20,504 nucleotides of DNA from a virus: positions 1 to 20,504 of IMG/VR virus record IMGVR_UViG_3300032144_000046, one strand, 5' to 3'. Below the pieces are notes generated by a model. It was not told where the DNA came from and made no database searches. It saw only the letters and a list, made by a program, of their open reading frames with translations. Shown here piece after piece: positions 1 through 4,365 of this stretch (positions within the stretch are counted from its first letter, which is position 1; each line of letters begins with the position of its first letter). The position numbers and the translations under genes are program-made.

Positions 1-1
1 G

Positions 2-88
2 GAAGAACGCTTCTCCATCTACGCCCAGAATGAGGCGGAAGTCCGGATGGGCTTCCGCGCCGAAGAGGACCTGTATCACGGAGTTTGA
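2..88 (+). CDS. 3' end of a gene of unknown function (partial)
   Basis: An open frame enters from the left edge and ends at TGA 86-88. The visible 28 residues end in EEDLYHGV and are acidic. No stop occurs in this frame, and the strand matches the small-gene cluster that follows. Nothing in the fragment identifies a family, and the body of the gene lies outside the window. Confidence 0.55.
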   Translation, partial: EERFSIYAQNEAEVRMGFRAEEDLYHGV

Positions 89-227
89 GATTGGCCGCTA
101 GGGGCCATCCCGGGGACGCTTCCCAGGCGTCGGAAAAACCATCCCGGGTTAAGGGGACCCATGGGCGGACCGGCGAGACGCGCCCTAGGCACCGTGAGCC
201 GGCCGGAGGCCCCCGCCTAGCATCCTT

Positions 228-256: not shown

Positions 257-269
257 TGAGGCGTCAGAA

Positions 270-289
270 GGGTCGGAATGGTCCGGCCC
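270..289 (+). promoter_or_regulatory. Leader hairpin before the 306 start
   Basis: GGGTCGGA (270-277) pairs with TCCGGCCC (282-289), with one T-G wobble and loop ATGG. It ends about 6 nt before the GGAGGG ribosome-binding site of the GTG start at 306. The layout (hairpin with an ATGG-containing loop, then RBS, then start) resembles the P1 and P2 leaders downstream, but I see no convincing matching promoter here. Confidence 0.35.
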
Positions 290-1197: not shown

Positions 1198-1397
1198 ACA
1201 CGGTCAAGGTCTTCCGGGTCCTCCCTTCCGGGACCCGCGGGCTGATCGGGACCGCCTACCTGGGCCAGGAGGGCTGGCGCTTCGTCCCGGCGATCTTCGG
1301 CCGGGAGCGGTCCCGCCGGGCCTGGCCCAACTGGGAAGCCTCGGTGCCCCGATGGGTCGGGTATCCCAGCGACAAGTTGGTGATCGAGAAAAGTTGA
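1194..1397 (+). CDS. Small protein of unknown function
   Basis: A 67-residue protein from ATG 1194, which overlaps the upstream TGA (ATGA). An in-frame GTG at 1182 would add four residues, but the ATGA coupling used throughout this cluster favours 1194. The sequence is Trp/Arg-rich in the middle (GWRFVPAIFGRERSRRAWPNWEASVPRW). No family recognised. Its TGA stop (1395-1397) lies inside the -35 box of promoter P1, so the promoter of the next gene is embedded in the end of this one. Confidence 0.65.
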   Translation: MNTVKVFRVLPSGTRGLIGTAYLGQEGWRFVPAIFGRERSRRAWPNWEASVPRWVGYPSDKLVIEKS

Positions 1398-1422
1398 CAC
1401 CTCAGTCGCTTTTGGGTAGACG
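1394..1422 (+). promoter_or_regulatory. Promoter P1 (TTGACA-N17-TAGACG)
   Basis: A perfect -35 hexamer TTGACA (1394-1399) is separated by 17 nt from TAGACG (1417-1422). The 13 bases TTTTGGGTAGACG (1410-1422) recur exactly in P2 (3680-3692), also at 17-nt spacing from a -35-like box. The -10 box is not consensus at its last two positions. TTGGG just before the -10 and CCCAA at 1434-1438 form an inverted repeat that could be an operator or a transcript hairpin. It would drive the gene at 1487. Confidence 0.65.
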
Positions 1423-1451
1423 AATGGGAAAGTCCCAACTAGAAGAGAAGG

Positions 1452-1473
1452 ACCGGAGCGATGGTGCTCCGGT
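1452..1473 (+). promoter_or_regulatory. P1 leader hairpin with ATG in the loop
   Basis: ACCGGAGC (1452-1459) and GCTCCGGT (1466-1473) form a perfect 8-bp stem with loop GATGGT. The 3' arm contains the first bases of the GGTGGAG ribosome-binding site of the next gene, so folding could limit initiation. The loop ATG (1461) is preceded at 8 nt by AAGGA and opens a 6-codon frame (MVLRWR) whose TGA overlaps ATG 1478. This looks like a possible leader peptide. Confidence 0.5.
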
Positions 1474-1486
1474 GGAGATGACCCCG

Positions 1487-2011
1487 ATGACTGAAACTGG
1501 CCTCTGCCCCTACTGCCTTGGTTCCTTCAAGATCGTCCGGGGCGTCCTCCCGCGCCACGGCTTCCGCGCCCACAACGTCCGCCACGGGACCTCGGGCGGC
1601 TTCCACACCGGGGCTTGCAACGGCGCCGGCCACCAGAAGATCGGGACCGAGGCCGGGAATACCAAGGCCCTCGACAACGCGACCTTCTACCAGGCGCGCG
1701 GCGAAGAACTCGCCGCCCTCCCCGCCTTCACCCGCGAGGAAGGGAAGGCCGCGACGATCCGCGCCGCCCAGGATACCCACCTGACCCGCCGCGCCAACGC
1801 CTGGGCGACCCCGGTCCCCCCGACCGCCGAGCAGCGCGCCGCCTACGCGACCCCGGAAGCCTTCGCCAACACTTCCGTCCGCGGCTGGTTCAGCGATGCG
1901 TCCTATGACCACCGGGCGAAGTCGATGACCCGCGAGCGCACTCAGCGCGCTGAGGCGATGATCACACACGCCGCCGCCCTCCGTGAGGCGGTCGCCCAAA
2001 ACCCGGCCTAG
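1487..2011 (+). CDS. Putative zinc-binding phage protein of unknown function
   Basis: A 174-residue protein from ATG 1487, with GGTGGAG 9 nt upstream. An alternative in-frame ATG at 1478 overlaps the stop of a 6-codon leader frame as ATGA. ATG 1424 is in frame too but lies 2 nt after the -10 box. The N-terminal 50 residues carry C7-x2-C10, His24/29/33/40, C44 and H49, in the arrangement CPYC...HG...TGAC...GH. This looks like a zinc ribbon or treble-clef-like knuckle, similar to uncharacterised proteins I recall from phages and plasmids of high-GC bacteria. Residues 60-174 are helical and Ala/Arg-rich with no catalytic motif visible. It is the only gene between promoter P1 and a strong hairpin (2019-2043), so it is probably a monocistron with its own regulation. 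Zinc binding is inferred from spacing only. Confidence 0.75.
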   Translation: MTETGLCPYCLGSFKIVRGVLPRHGFRAHNVRHGTSGGFHTGACNGAGHQKIGTEAGNTKALDNATFYQARGEELAALPAFTREEGKAATIRAAQDTHLTRRANAWATPVPPTAEQRAAYATPEAFANTSVRGWFSDASYDHRAKSMTRERTQRAEAMITHAAALREAVAQNPA

Positions 2012-2018
2012 CGCAATC

Positions 2019-2043
2019 GGGGGCGGGCCTCGGGCCCGCCTCC
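2019..2043 (+). terminator. Strong hairpin just after the zinc-binding gene
   Basis: GGGGGCGGGCC (2019-2029) pairs with GGCCCGCCTCC (2033-2043) around a TCG loop, 11 bp with one G-T wobble. It starts 7 nt after the stop at 2011 and has no T-tract. It could terminate the P1 transcript or partly attenuate read-through into 2062. Confidence 0.55.
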
Positions 2044-2061
2044 CTCCCGGAGGACCCGGCT

Positions 2062-2316
2062 ATGATCGTCACCACCAGCGGACCTTTCGGCGCCCTCTGC
2101 GGCCTCGCCGGGATTGACGCGGAACTCCACGGGGTCCGCGCCCGGCGCGTCCCGACCGGCCGCGAGGCGAGCAACTACATGGGCCACGGGGACCCCGGCC
2201 AGGTCATCTATTATCTGGACGGGAAGCGGTCCAGCCGGGCGAAGGCCCTCCTGCGCCTGGAAGCGCACATCGCCGAAGGCGAGCAAGTCGTCATCACCGG
2301 AGCCCCCGTGCTATGA
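2062..2316 (+). CDS. Small protein of unknown function
   Basis: An 84-residue protein from ATG 2062, with GGAGGAC 7 nt upstream. It is a mixed alpha/beta-looking sequence, with GHGDPGQVIYYLDGKRSSRAKALLRLEAHI in its middle and an ending in EQVVITGAPVL. No family recognised. It opens a second coupled block: its TGA overlaps the next ATG (ATGA at 2313-2316). The strong hairpin at 2019-2043 lies just upstream, so expression may depend on read-through. Confidence 0.65.
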   Translation: MIVTTSGPFGALCGLAGIDAELHGVRARRVPTGREASNYMGHGDPGQVIYYLDGKRSSRAKALLRLEAHIAEGEQVVITGAPVL

Positions 2317-2549
2317 AGACCAATTCCCGCGGCGCCGTCTACCAGGCGGTTGAAGACCTCTCCGCCGCCGTCAAGCCCGGCGGCTTCTTCTCCCACTGGC
2401 ACTCCGCCGGGGCGATCGCGAAGAAGGCTGGGGTGTCGGTATCGACGGCGCGGAAGCACCTGAAGAATATCAACCACTTCCGCGGCTACGCCATCCACCG
2501 CTTCCCCGGCGGAGCCCTCGGTTACAAGTATTACGGAGACGCCCGATGA
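2313..2549 (+). CDS. Winged-helix DNA-binding protein, possible regulator
   Basis: A 78-residue protein starting at ATG 2313 in an ATGA overlap. Residues 31-52 (SAGAIAKKAGVSVSTARKHL) are a clear helix-turn-helix: a short helix, the turn GVS, and a recognition helix STARKHLKNI. A basic, aromatic wing-like segment (residues 55-76, with GYKYYGD) follows. The size fits a single winged-helix domain as found in small phage regulators and replication accessory proteins. The neighbours are small phage genes of unknown role, so its target is not evident. The paired P1/P2 sites are the obvious candidate operators in this window, but nothing in the sequence links them to this protein. Confidence 0.65.
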   Translation: MKTNSRGAVYQAVEDLSAAVKPGGFFSHWHSAGAIAKKAGVSVSTARKHLKNINHFRGYAIHRFPGGALGYKYYGDAR

Positions 2550-2734
2550 GCCTCCCCGCCGAGTGGGACAACCCGACCTGGAAGGAGGGCTATGATGCCC
2601 GCCGGGTCGGCTGGGGCCTCCACAAGGGGGCCTCCCCCGCCTATGCTCGCGGCTGGACCTACCGCGAGCGACTTGAGAACCCGCCGCCGGGTCCGCGGCC
2701 CACCGTCTACGTCTTCAAGGAAGAACCGAAATGA
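2546..2734 (+). CDS. Small RMF-like protein
   Basis: A 62-residue protein in ATGA overlap with the previous gene. The pattern W-x2-GYDARRVG...SPAYARGWTYRER resembles the ribosome-modulation-factor-like fold common in phages and proteobacteria (W-x-EGY-x-A-x2-G...W-x-GW). That family is short, basic and often of unknown role in phages. The match is by eye and incomplete: the second Trp region is GWTYRER rather than the usual W-x2-GW. The C terminus is Pro-rich, then charged. Confidence 0.6.
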   Translation: MSLPAEWDNPTWKEGYDARRVGWGLHKGASPAYARGWTYRERLENPPPGPRPTVYVFKEEPK

Positions 2735-2922
2735 TCCACGTGCTCACCCTGATCGTCATGACCGCCTTCGGGCCCACCGTCACGCACGTCCACTTCCCGA
2801 CGCGGGAGGCCTGCGACAACGCGCTGATGCGCGTCAACGGGTCCCTCGCCCAAATCCCCGCGGACCGCCGGCCGGCCGGCTCCGCGACCTGCAGTGCCCA
2901 GCCCGAGGGGAGCCGGCCATGA
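2731..2922 (+). CDS. Small protein with hydrophobic N terminus
   Basis: A 63-residue protein from ATG 2731, which overlaps the previous stop (ATGA). The N terminus MIHVLTLIVMTAFGPTVTHVHFP reads as a short beta-strand or weak signal-like stretch. FPTREACDNAL follows, and there is a second Cys near the C terminus, so the two Cys could form a disulfide if exported. I recall similar short phage proteins (hydrophobic start, then F-x-[ST]-x-EAC) with no assigned function. It is the fourth in a row of genes joined by ATGA overlaps. Confidence 0.6.
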   Translation: MIHVLTLIVMTAFGPTVTHVHFPTREACDNALMRVNGSLAQIPADRRPAGSATCSAQPEGSRP

Positions 2923-3281
2923 CCTCCCGCCTCTACACCGTCAGCGGCAAGTGGCCGTTCCCCCTCGACATGCTCCGGCATGACCTCGCCGGGCCGGCGA
3001 CGGACACCGACCGGGACCTCATCACCCGGATGACCGGCGAAGCCTCTGACCCGGAACTCGGGATGAACACCGTCACGATTGCCCTACGCATGGAAGGGGG
3101 CGAGCCGGTTGGCTCCCGGCCGGGCGGCCGCTATGTGCCCAATGAAGCCCGCTGGAAGTCCTTCGGCTGGATCGTGTCCGGAGGCGGAGCGGAAGCGCGC
3201 CCGGGCGGCCGGGCAGGACCCGCTCCACGTCGCGCAGCTGACCGAGGCGGAAGCCCTCCGCCTCTGGACGGAACGCAATAG
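2919..3281 (+). CDS. Phage protein of unknown function; 3' end in doubt
   Basis: A 120-residue frame from ATG 2919 (ATGA overlap). Residues 1-86 look like a real protein: YTVSGKWPFPLDMLRHD, then a Ser/Glu-poor middle, ending YVPNEARWKSFGWIVS. This matches a pattern I recall in small phage proteins that normally end soon after the SFGW motif. Beyond codon 86 (about 3179) the frame turns into Gly/Arg/Pro-rich low complexity, while the +1 frame becomes the convincing coding frame (next entry). Either the genes overlap by more than 100 nt, or the true frame changes near 3177-3183 through a real +1 shift, a mutation or a sequence error. The N-terminal part is secure, the C-terminal part is not. 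Confidence 0.6.
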   Translation: MTSRLYTVSGKWPFPLDMLRHDLAGPATDTDRDLITRMTGEASDPELGMNTVTIALRMEGGEPVGSRPGGRYVPNEARWKSFGWIVSGGGAEARPGGRAGPAPRRAADRGGSPPPLDGTQ

Positions 3282-3468
3282 CCTGCTCGCCCGGGTCGCC
3301 CATCGTCTCCGGGCGCATGCCGCCCGGGTGGAACAGGACGAAGGCCAGGCGAAGCCGCCGAGCACCCTGGCGATGATCCAGCGGGACCTCGCCGAGGCGG
3401 AGAAGATGATTGAGCTGGTCCTGGAGCGGAAACTGGACCTCGGCTACATCCGCGATCGGGAGGCCTGA
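3133..3468 (+). CDS. Helical protein of unknown function; start uncertain
   Basis: The frame is convincing from about 3178 (PEAERKRARAAGQDPLHV...) to TGA 3466-3468. It is an Ala/Glu/Arg-rich, coiled-coil-like helical protein (ALRLWTERNSLLARVAHRL; MIQRDLAEAEKMIELVLERK). The possible starts ATG 3133 and ATG 3142 have poor ribosome-binding sites, and the stretch from there to 3178 does not look coding. No start codon exists right at 3178. It may therefore be the C-terminal part of the upstream protein after a +1 frame change. The end is followed 3 nt later by the ATG of the excisionase-like gene. The 5' boundary given is only the longest plausible ATG start. Confidence 0.5.
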   Translation: MCPMKPAGSPSAGSCPEAERKRARAAGQDPLHVAQLTEAEALRLWTERNSLLARVAHRLRAHAARVEQDEGQAKPPSTLAMIQRDLAEAEKMIELVLERKLDLGYIRDREA

Positions 3469-3471
3469 CCG

Positions 3472-3663
3472 ATGGCTTTGAAACGTCTCGCCTACTCCAT
3501 CAAGGAAACGACGCAGATGCTTGGAATCAGCCGGTCCGCGCTATACCGGCACATCAGCGCCGGGAAGGTCTCAATCCGACACGTTGGGGGGAGGACCCTC
3601 ATCACCGCCGCGGAGGTTGAACGCATACTGGCAACGCCCGCGGAGCCGGGGTGGCGAAAATAA
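3472..3663 (+). CDS. Excisionase-like helix-turn-helix protein
   Basis: A 63-residue protein from ATG 3472, with GGGAGG about 8 nt upstream. The sequence fits the HTH_17 / MerR-type excisionase domain: YSIKETTQMLGISRSALYRH as the helix-turn-helix (residues 8-27), SAGKVSIRHVGGRTLI as the wing, then the helix AAEVERIL. Such proteins act as excisionases with an integrase or as small transcription factors. No integrase is visible in the window, so the role is undetermined. The TAA stop (3661-3663) directly abuts the -35 box of promoter P2, so it could regulate that promoter, but this is conjecture. Confidence 0.8.
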   Translation: MALKRLAYSIKETTQMLGISRSALYRHISAGKVSIRHVGGRTLITAAEVERILATPAEPGWRK

Positions 3664-3692
3664 TTGGCTGGCGCATCGTTTTTGGGTAGACG
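3664..3692 (+). promoter_or_regulatory. Promoter P2 (TTGGCT-N17-TAGACG)
   Basis: TTGGCT (3664-3669) is followed after 17 nt by TAGACG (3687-3692). The 17 bases ending in TAGACG match P1 with one difference (TCG[C/T]TTTTGGGTAGACG). TTTGG (3681-3685) and CCAAA (3698-3702) form an inverted repeat around the -10 box. Downstream CCAACTAcAAG (3705-3715) matches CCAACTAgAAG in P1. The -35 begins at the base after the upstream stop codon. The conserved non-coding match makes a promoter or operator likely. Confidence 0.65.
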
Positions 3693-3723
3693 CGGCGCCA
3701 AATACCAACTACAAGTCTTCTTA

Positions 3724-3745
3724 CCGGCGGGGATGGACCCGCCGG
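3724..3745 (+). promoter_or_regulatory. P2 leader hairpin with ATG in the loop
   Basis: CCGGCGGG (3724-3731) and CCCGCCGG (3738-3745) form a perfect 8-bp stem with loop GATGGA, nearly the loop of the P1 hairpin (GATGGT). It starts 37 nt after the -10 box, against 35 nt in P1. The loop ATG (3733) opens an 18-codon frame including its stop (3733-3786) that overlaps the real start at 3764. AAGGA (3750-3754) is the ribosome-binding site of the gene. Confidence 0.5.
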
Positions 3746-3763
3746 GACGAAGGAACCGCCCCG

Positions 3764-3979
3764 ATGGCCCTGAAGATCGAATTTGACGAAGCCCCGTTCA
3801 TCCGGTCGCACATGACGACCCCCCGCGGCCGCGGGTCCTACGCCTTCAGCATCGAAGGCCAGGCGCCGATCTTCTCCCCCTCGGGGACCTACGCCGAGGC
3901 GAAGAAGTGGGCCAAGGCCCAGGTCCTCGCGATTGCCCCCGCCGACGCGATCAGCGCGACCGTTGAGGTGCTGCCGTGA
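3764..3979 (+). CDS. Small phage protein of unknown function
   Basis: A 71-residue protein from ATG 3764, with AAGGA 9 nt upstream. The motifs FIRSHMTTPRGRGSYAFS and SGTYAEAKKWAKAQ recall a family of small uncharacterised phage proteins with an SH-x4-PRGRGSWAF core followed by a helix T-Y-x-EAKK. It is compact, with beta strands then a helix, and no membrane segment. It is the first gene behind promoter P2 and its hairpin leader, and is likely cotranscribed with the next gene, whose GTG overlaps its stop (GTGA). An upstream in-frame extension exists but would cross the promoter. Confidence 0.75.
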   Translation: MALKIEFDEAPFIRSHMTTPRGRGSYAFSIEGQAPIFSPSGTYAEAKKWAKAQVLAIAPADAISATVEVLP

Positions 3980-4149
3980 GCCGGAACGCCCCCAAGGAAG
4001 CCCTCCTGATCCTCTCCAGCGACCAGGAGGCGTCCATCGCCACCGAGTTCGGCGACGGGACGCAGTTCAAGGCCGGCGACACCGTCCTCCACGACCACAA
4101 CCGCGGGACCTTCCGCCGGGTCCCGGGGACCGACCTCCCGAAGGCCTGA
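3976..4149 (+). CDS. Very small protein of unknown function
   Basis: A 57-residue protein starting at GTG 3976, which overlaps the upstream TGA (GTGA). The ribosome-binding site GAGGTG lies 5 nt upstream, and the stop is TGA 4147-4149. The sequence reads MSRNAPKEALLILSSDQEAS, then IATEFGDGTQFKAGDTVLHD and a basic end NRGTFRRVPGTDLPKA. The middle looks like a small beta-barrel (hydrophobic/Gly alternation, GDTVLHD). No family recognised. It is the last plus-strand gene before the convergent terminator region. Confidence 0.6.
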   Translation: MSRNAPKEALLILSSDQEASIATEFGDGTQFKAGDTVLHDHNRGTFRRVPGTDLPKA

Positions 4150-4167
4150 AGCCCTCCAGAAGCGCAC

Positions 4168-4202
4168 AGGCCCGGCACAGCCCGGGCGATCGGGCCGGGC
4201 CT
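4168..4202 (+). terminator. Hairpin terminator after the plus-strand genes
   Basis: AGGCCCGGC (4168-4176) pairs perfectly with GCCGGGCCT (4194-4202). It begins 19 nt after the last plus-strand stop. There is no T-tract, so it may need Rho or act only as a 3' stabilising fold. It is symmetrical and can form in transcripts of either strand. Confidence 0.5.
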
Positions 4203-4365
4203 CGGGAACGGGGACCCGGCCTAACTGTGTAGACGGGCAGCAGAGTCTCGAAAATTAGACGCCCGGCGATCGCCGCGGCCGCGCCGGGGGAGCCGGCGCC
4301 CGGGTTCCGGATATCCGCGGAGCCGGGCGAGGCCGGGCCTGTGCCCTGCCTGTGCGTTAATGGAC

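Follow-up and report, generated by a model that had tools for sequence, protein, structure and literature searches.

A repeated putative promoter with an adjacent RNA hairpin before non-structural genes of a tailed phage

The window analysed here is a 20.5 kb phage fragment (20,504 nt) from IMG/VR, record IMGVR_UViG_3300032144_000046. Its left 4.2 kb consist of small rightward genes, and the remainder is mostly leftward and of structural type. Two of the rightward genes are preceded by modules, P1 and P2, that combine promoter-like boxes with an inverted repeat and that the initial annotation had proposed to act as one common control device on genes with nothing else in common. This observation is real and larger than first noted, and one promoter box is reassigned. 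P1 and P2 would belong to a set of about 8-9 copies of a single expression cassette, distributed over the non-structural half of a tailed phage genome.

The modules in the window and on an overlapping contig

All elements that had been quoted for the two modules were located in the sequence (Table 1). The motif TTTTGGGTAGACG is exact at 1410-1422 and 3680-3692, CCAACTAGAAG and CCAACTACAAG are equally distant in P1 and P2, a Shine-Dalgarno-like purine run is found in both, and each module starts at the stop codon of the gene before it. Not every element belongs to a common design. The supposedly shared -35-like box is TTGACA in P1 only; P2 has TTGGCT, and nothing comparable is found in the other copies described below. 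The inverted repeats TTGGG/CCCAA and TTTGG/CCAAA are present, but their spacings differ between P1 and P2 and the other copies are without them; TTGGG/CCCAA was therefore rejected as a conserved operator. Likewise, CCCCGATG is found at start codons 1487 and 3764, but it also opens the module-less genes J8589 and J37498 (joint coordinates, see below) and was dropped as a module part. The claim that the matched arrangement exceeds chance fails for the P1/P2 pair alone, because its best 37-nt ungapped register has 27 identities, compared with 26-28 in shuffled windows. Evidence from outside the pair was thus needed, and the claim stands once the extra copies are counted.

These copies lie on a second IMG/VR contig of 48.1 kb, IMGVR_UViG_3300032144_000018 (G001). 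Window positions 1-193 align with the reverse complement of G001 193-1 at 93%, the last 127 nt being exact, and this exact 127-mer at the ends of both contigs is flanked by diverged sequence. Judging from assembler practice, an exact end overlap of 127 nt presumably reflects a shared assembly k-mer. Because of the end overlap with its exact 127-mer, the window and G001 probably represent neighbouring or near-identical phage populations and would be adjoining contigs of the same or a sister phage. Joint coordinates (J) run through reversed G001 and then the window, such that the window position is J - 47907 and the G001 position is 48101 - J.

An exact scan of viral contigs for TTTGGGTAGACG-N10-15-CAACTA returned seven stretches, two of which are real copies, both in G001, while the remaining five are without a hairpin leader and are read as chance matches. 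In total, the window and G001 contain 8-9 cassettes with promoter and hairpin, one promoter without hairpin and a few weaker candidates, such as J3233 and J23314. The cassette copies are all on one strand in J coordinates, each stands before a different gene, and their hairpins covary, which bears out the idea of a shared control device; the search for further copies that the initial annotation had suggested thus found them on G001. A scan of 68.4 kb for a promoter with adjacent hairpin yielded 11 sites on the gene strand and none on the other (6 versus 0 without mismatch). Stems of at least 6.5 starting 4-9 nt after the -10 box are present at 7/10 promoters, compared with 1.9% of random positions. 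Two covariance models, whose E-values are rough (short calibration), gave a similar picture. Model R2, built from four G001 copies only, recovered P1 (E 3.1e-17) and P2 (E 2.1e-6) in the window, with the next match at 0.15. Model R1 detected four sites outside its training set at E 0.0018-0.071 (J44323, J43931, J9397 and J7678). All four are on the gene strand, whereas the opposite strand gave no match below E 2.6. P1 and J19607 match at 87% over 87 bp.

Table 1. Features of P1, P2 and related copies. Numerical positions refer to the window; J marks joint coordinates, for which the -35 box, spacer length and -10 box are followed by the hairpin.
Feature	Position	Strand	Sequence and remarks
P1 upstream AT-rich stretch, UP-element-like	1380..1416	+	A tract GAGAAAAGTTGAC, T tract CTTTTGGG; includes TTGACA 1394-1399, not common to other copies
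P1 -35 box	1417..1422	+	TAGACG (previously read as -10); conserved in other copies
P1 -10 box	1440..1445	+	TAGAAG, spacer 17 nt; geometry TAGAC-N17-CTAGAAG
P1 hairpin	1452..1473	+	DNA ACCGGAGC-GATGGT-GCTCCGGT, RNA ACCGGAGC-GAUGGU-GCUCCGGU; begins 6 nt after -10; covariation; predicted transcription start A1452, its first base
P1 ribosome-binding site and spacer	1474..1486	+	GGAG
P1-served gene	1487..2011	+	174 aa, CxxC motif near N terminus, no confident family
P2 upstream stretch	3650..3686	+	A and T tracts GCGAAAATAATTGG ... CGTTTTTGGG
P2 -35 box	3687..3692	+	TAGACG, exact match, conserved
P2 -10 box	3710..3715	+	TACAAG, spacer 17 nt, conserved
P2 hairpin	3724..3745	+	DNA CCGGCGGG-GATGGA-CCCGCCGG, RNA CCGGCGGG-GAUGGA-CCCGCCGG; stem differs from P1, loop core same; predicted start A3723
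P2 ribosome-binding site	3749..3763	+	GAAGGA + CCCCG
P2-served gene	3764..3979	+	71 aa, no family
Hairpin-only relative	270..289	+	GGGUCGGA-AUGG-UCCGGCCC; precedes gene starting GTG 306; no clear promoter of P1/P2 type
Copy	J19607		TAGACG-17-TAGAAG; CCGGGGC-GATGGG-GCCCCGG
Copy	J47577		TAGACG-18-TATAAG; CCGGGGC-GTTGGG-GCCTCGG
Copy	J35584		TTGACG-17-TAGAAG; CCGGGGC-GATGGG-GCCCCGG
Copy	J10294		TAGACG-18-TAGAAG; GGCGGGGC-GATGGG-GCCCCGCC
Copy	J7678		TAGACC-18-TAGAAA; GGCG(CA)CCGGA-ATGG-TCCGG(AC)CGCC
Copy	J44323		TTGACG-18-TAGGCT; CGGGG-AATGGC-CCCCG
Copy	J6701		TAGGCG-17-TACCTT; CCCGGCG/CGCCGGG, loop different

Promoter boxes and hairpin

The promoter anatomy proposed initially was one box off: TAGACG fits better as a -35 than as a -10 box, which would place the hairpin at the RNA 5' end and not inside a longer leader. 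In the revised register, T[A/T]GAC[G/C] and TANAA[G/A] at a distance of 17-18 nt are kept in 8/10 copies, and TAGAC or TTGAC is present in 9/10, whereas the leading CT of CTTGAC/CTTAGAC is not retained. The spacer measures 17 nt in six of the ten copies and 18 nt in four, and the -10 hexamer agrees with TATAAT at 4-5 of six positions in eight copies and at three in the other two. AT content in the 40 nt before the -35 box is 40-55% in 9/10 copies (53% in P1) and 30% in J44323, compared with 33% for the genome overall, and this stretch is UP-element-like. The start is predicted about 7 nt after TANAAG, at the A before CCGG in P1, P2, J19607, J35584 and J47577. Stems begin 5-8 nt past the -10 box in most copies, near the predicted start, and the message would therefore begin with the hairpin. 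The sequences themselves show the repeated copies, their strand bias and position, the covariation and the conserved loop; promoter activity, start site and mRNA stabilisation are what we infer from these features.

The sequence CTTAGAC-N17-CTATAT was proposed for sigma70 promoters of S. meliloti (PMC2245857) and named an alpha-proteobacterial RpoD signature (PMC10746234). The cassette copies with a 17-nt spacer resemble these promoters (CTTAGAC/CTTGAC-N17-CTATAT) in that TAGAC and CTANAAG are equally spaced by N17 (PMC2245857, PMC2873474, PMC10746234). In contrast to them, the -10 box of the cassette ends in AAG and not in TAT, and conservation extends to TTTTTGGG before the -35 box and CAAC before the -10 box. 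Host RNA polymerase is the likely transcriber of the cassettes, because Pfam assigned none of the 59 open reading frames (ORFs) of G001, a genome that may be incomplete, to an RNA polymerase or sigma family; the 25/48 PHROG families listed contain none either.

Covariation was determined for seven distinct hairpins chosen by promoter match; as the copies come from one phage population, the counts do not represent independent events. Seven of the nine stem pairs change on both sides. Double-changed cells amount to 14, compared with 5.4 +/- 1.6 after shuffling (reached in 0/500 shuffles) and 0-7 in slid controls, and 4/5 covariation measures lie above all 500 shuffles, the fifth being reached in 6/500. 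Base pairing is thus maintained, as a 5'-terminal stabilising stem-loop requires. The loop contains U-G-G in all seven hairpins and follows a conserved [A/U]UGG pattern, with GAUGGA in P2 and GAUGGU, GAUGGG, GUUGGG or AAUGGC in the others. The P1 hairpin folds with -16.2 kcal/mol (z -3.3) and the P2 leader with -24.3 kcal/mol (z -2.0). No Rfam family matched at the gathering threshold or at E <= 1, the CsrA/RsmA loop motif GGA occurs in P2 but in none of the other copies, and the T4-type UUCG tetraloop is absent from the loops.

Two further functions of the hairpin were considered and rejected. An upstream ORF from the loop AUG is ruled out by the reading frames, of which two end at an ATGA overlap and one 7 nt before the start, while the rest do not; in J47577 the triplet is UUG. 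A switch between the GGGG of the hairpin and a CCCC of the start region, prompted by the fold of J10294, cannot be general because P1 has no GGGG. In J44323 (G001 3778, minus strand), the loop AUG shares the reading frame of the gene that follows, for which it may serve as start codon; this is not the case in other copies.

Stabilising leader and alternative functions

With moderate confidence, we favour a multi-copy promoter with a 5'-terminal hairpin leader that would shield non-structural mRNAs from 5'-end-dependent decay and possibly also serve a loop-reading factor. The cassette would start with an A/T-tract upstream stretch, followed by an RpoD-type promoter (-35 TAGACG or TTGACG, 17-18 nt, -10 TANAAG), a transcription start at the stem foot, a stem rich in G+C and mostly 7-9 bp long, the [A/U]UGG loop, the ribosome-binding site and finally the start codon. 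Messages made by host RNA polymerase would start with the hairpin, and a 5' end inside the stem would deny RppH and RNase E their preferred single-stranded end. The transcripts would thus be longer-lived and have an insulated leader in common. Placing a hairpin at +1 is the established route to 5'-end mRNA stabilisation. RppH and RNase E depend on single-stranded 5' ends, and 5' structures hence stabilise mRNA (PMC3997798), as the 5' CUUCGG hairpin does for T4 gene 32 mRNA (PMC8948821). Like the stabilising stem-loops of E. coli ompA and papA and of T4 gene 32, the cassette stem would open a short leader that runs up to the ribosome-binding site (PMC3997798, PMC8948821). Different from these examples, the cassette hairpin comes together with a promoter and in many copies per genome, its loop is [A/U]UGG and not UUCG, and its stabilising effect is a prediction.

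Several points weigh against the stabilising leader. TAGACG and TANAAG are both imperfect compared with the E. coli consensus, and the assignment to alpha-proteobacterial promoters is indirect. J9397 is a good promoter copy in which the hairpin is absent, whereas window position 270 and J43931 show an AUGG hairpin before a gene with no clear promoter. Several leaders are unremarkable by thermodynamics alone (z -0.2 to -1.6), and treating the window and G001 as one genome depends on the exact 127-nt end overlap amid diverged sequence. Furthermore, plain stabilisation alone does not account for the conserved loop, which hints, less surely, at an additional loop-reading factor.

A possible but rather doubtful alternative is that the hairpin serves as an operator at the level of translation or RNA. 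A phage or host RNA-binding protein, or a small RNA, would recognise the [A/U]UGG loop and jointly repress or activate the messages. The invariance of U-G-G next to stems that change on both sides would fit this role, and as the hairpin ends just before the ribosome-binding site, protein binding there would keep the 30S subunit out. However, no RNA-binding regulator was recognised among the annotated families, the loop is mostly not the GGA of CsrA, and several copies are recent duplicates (P1/J19607), so loop conservation partly reflects ancestry. Similarly tentative is a phage-wide post-transcriptional regulon, in which an RNA-binding factor of phage or host would read the 5' [A/U]UGG hairpin on at least eight messages and set their stability or translation jointly, the tag being built into a portable promoter cassette.

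The promoter register of the initial annotation, a sigma70 promoter with -35 TTGACA/TTGGCT, -10 TAGACG and an internal leader hairpin 35-37 nt past the -10 box, is improbable. P1 does have a perfect TTGACA 17 nt from TAGACG, but the upstream box of the other copies matches TTGACA at only 1-4/6 positions, and in J35584 and J44323 the TAGACG slot holds TTGACG, which is a -35 and not a -10 box. This register also fails to explain why CAACTANAAG is conserved and lies at a nearly constant distance from the hairpin.

An antitermination site, where the 5' hairpin would be loaded on RNA polymerase and allow read-through of terminators in the long rightward region, appears quite improbable as well. Lambda nut and HK022 put likewise place a hairpin in the 5' leader of early phage transcripts, and here a hairpin with conserved loop would open several transcripts of one region, with G+C hairpins between the downstream genes. 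In contrast to nut and put, the cassette sits in many copies before single genes and not once per operon, no boxA-like element was recognised by eye, and each leader has a single hairpin, whereas HK022 put consists of two.

Very unlikely is a DNA-level device, in which the inverted repeats are operators of a dimeric repressor or activator and the RNA hairpin is incidental. Genes for two small helix-turn-helix (HTH) proteins do flank the modules (2313-2549 and 3472-3663) and some promoter spacers also contain inverted repeats, but these are not fixed in position, and the stems vary with compensatory changes that a DNA operator would not allow, the loop being conserved and the arms not. That the hairpins terminate or process the transcripts of the genes before them is the least likely reading: the hairpins do come after stop codons and the P1 hairpin scored terminator-like on the minus strand, but on the gene strand no U tract follows the stem and the scan gave no terminator site at P1 or P2, the P1/P2 type leads into a ribosome-binding site and start codon, and the minus-strand pyrimidine tail is absent from P2 and J47577.

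Related repeats, spread and neighbouring genes

The start-associated and extended start-associated sequences (SAS/ESAS) of cluster K mycobacteriophages are, like the cassette, multi-copy and mostly same-strand, and within one group of phages they mark the starts of non-structural genes that are unrelated to each other (PMC3203893). Half of the SAS/ESAS elements have inverted repeats, and their function is unknown (PMC3203893). In contrast to SAS, a fixed 13-mer beside the start codon, the cassette carries a promoter, and while the 17-bp inverted repeats of ESAS do not support RNA pairing, its short arms do so according to covariation. The 13-bp SAS GGGATAGGAGCCC was found by the start codon in no leader of any copy, all of which were read.

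IMG/VR scans by pattern and by protein detected G001 only, in addition to chance matches; a genome contig collection gave two chance matches only, phage records contained no further copies, and none of the annotated phages matches the window DNA over 1200-4260. Among 79 relatives identified through their DNA polymerase, with identities up to 40%, no cassette match was below E 0.1, and their sigma70-like sites showed no hairpin excess at +1 (5/122; controls 2-6). Thus, the cassette looks specific to this lineage within reach of the viral, phage and bacterial collections.

The cassette is a variation on known repeated phage promoters and 5'-terminal stem-loops, and known principles are not overturned by it. 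If the proposed reading is true, one phage lineage combined a promoter with an RNA hairpin at the 5' terminus in a portable unit that was copied before many unrelated genes. This would provide a natural series of stem variants with near-constant loop for testing how 5'-end structure sets mRNA life during phage infection. A factor that binds the loop would likewise have a candidate regulon at hand. The cassette is also a compact expression part worth trying in alpha-proteobacteria.

Of the two HTH proteins of the module region, the one encoded directly upstream of P2 (3472-3663) is of the HTH_17 (excisionase-like) type and the other (2313-2549) of the HTH_11 type. In G001, L017:6532-7698:-, L017:5426-6532:- and L017:12858-13691:- encode a 5-hmdU DNA kinase, a thymidylate synthase homologue and a PLP enzyme (PALP), which likely form a thymidine hypermodification set; promoter thymines may therefore be modified in virion DNA. 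An isolated TAGACG...TTAGACG pair (R1 E 0.33) lies at window 4229-4260, in the convergent intergenic region past the last rightward gene. Finally, a second repeated element, GAGGCGTCAGAAGG (one copy GAGGCGTCAGAGGC), occurs at window 258-271, J8382 and J10730, where it immediately follows a G+C-rich hairpin and precedes a gene start.

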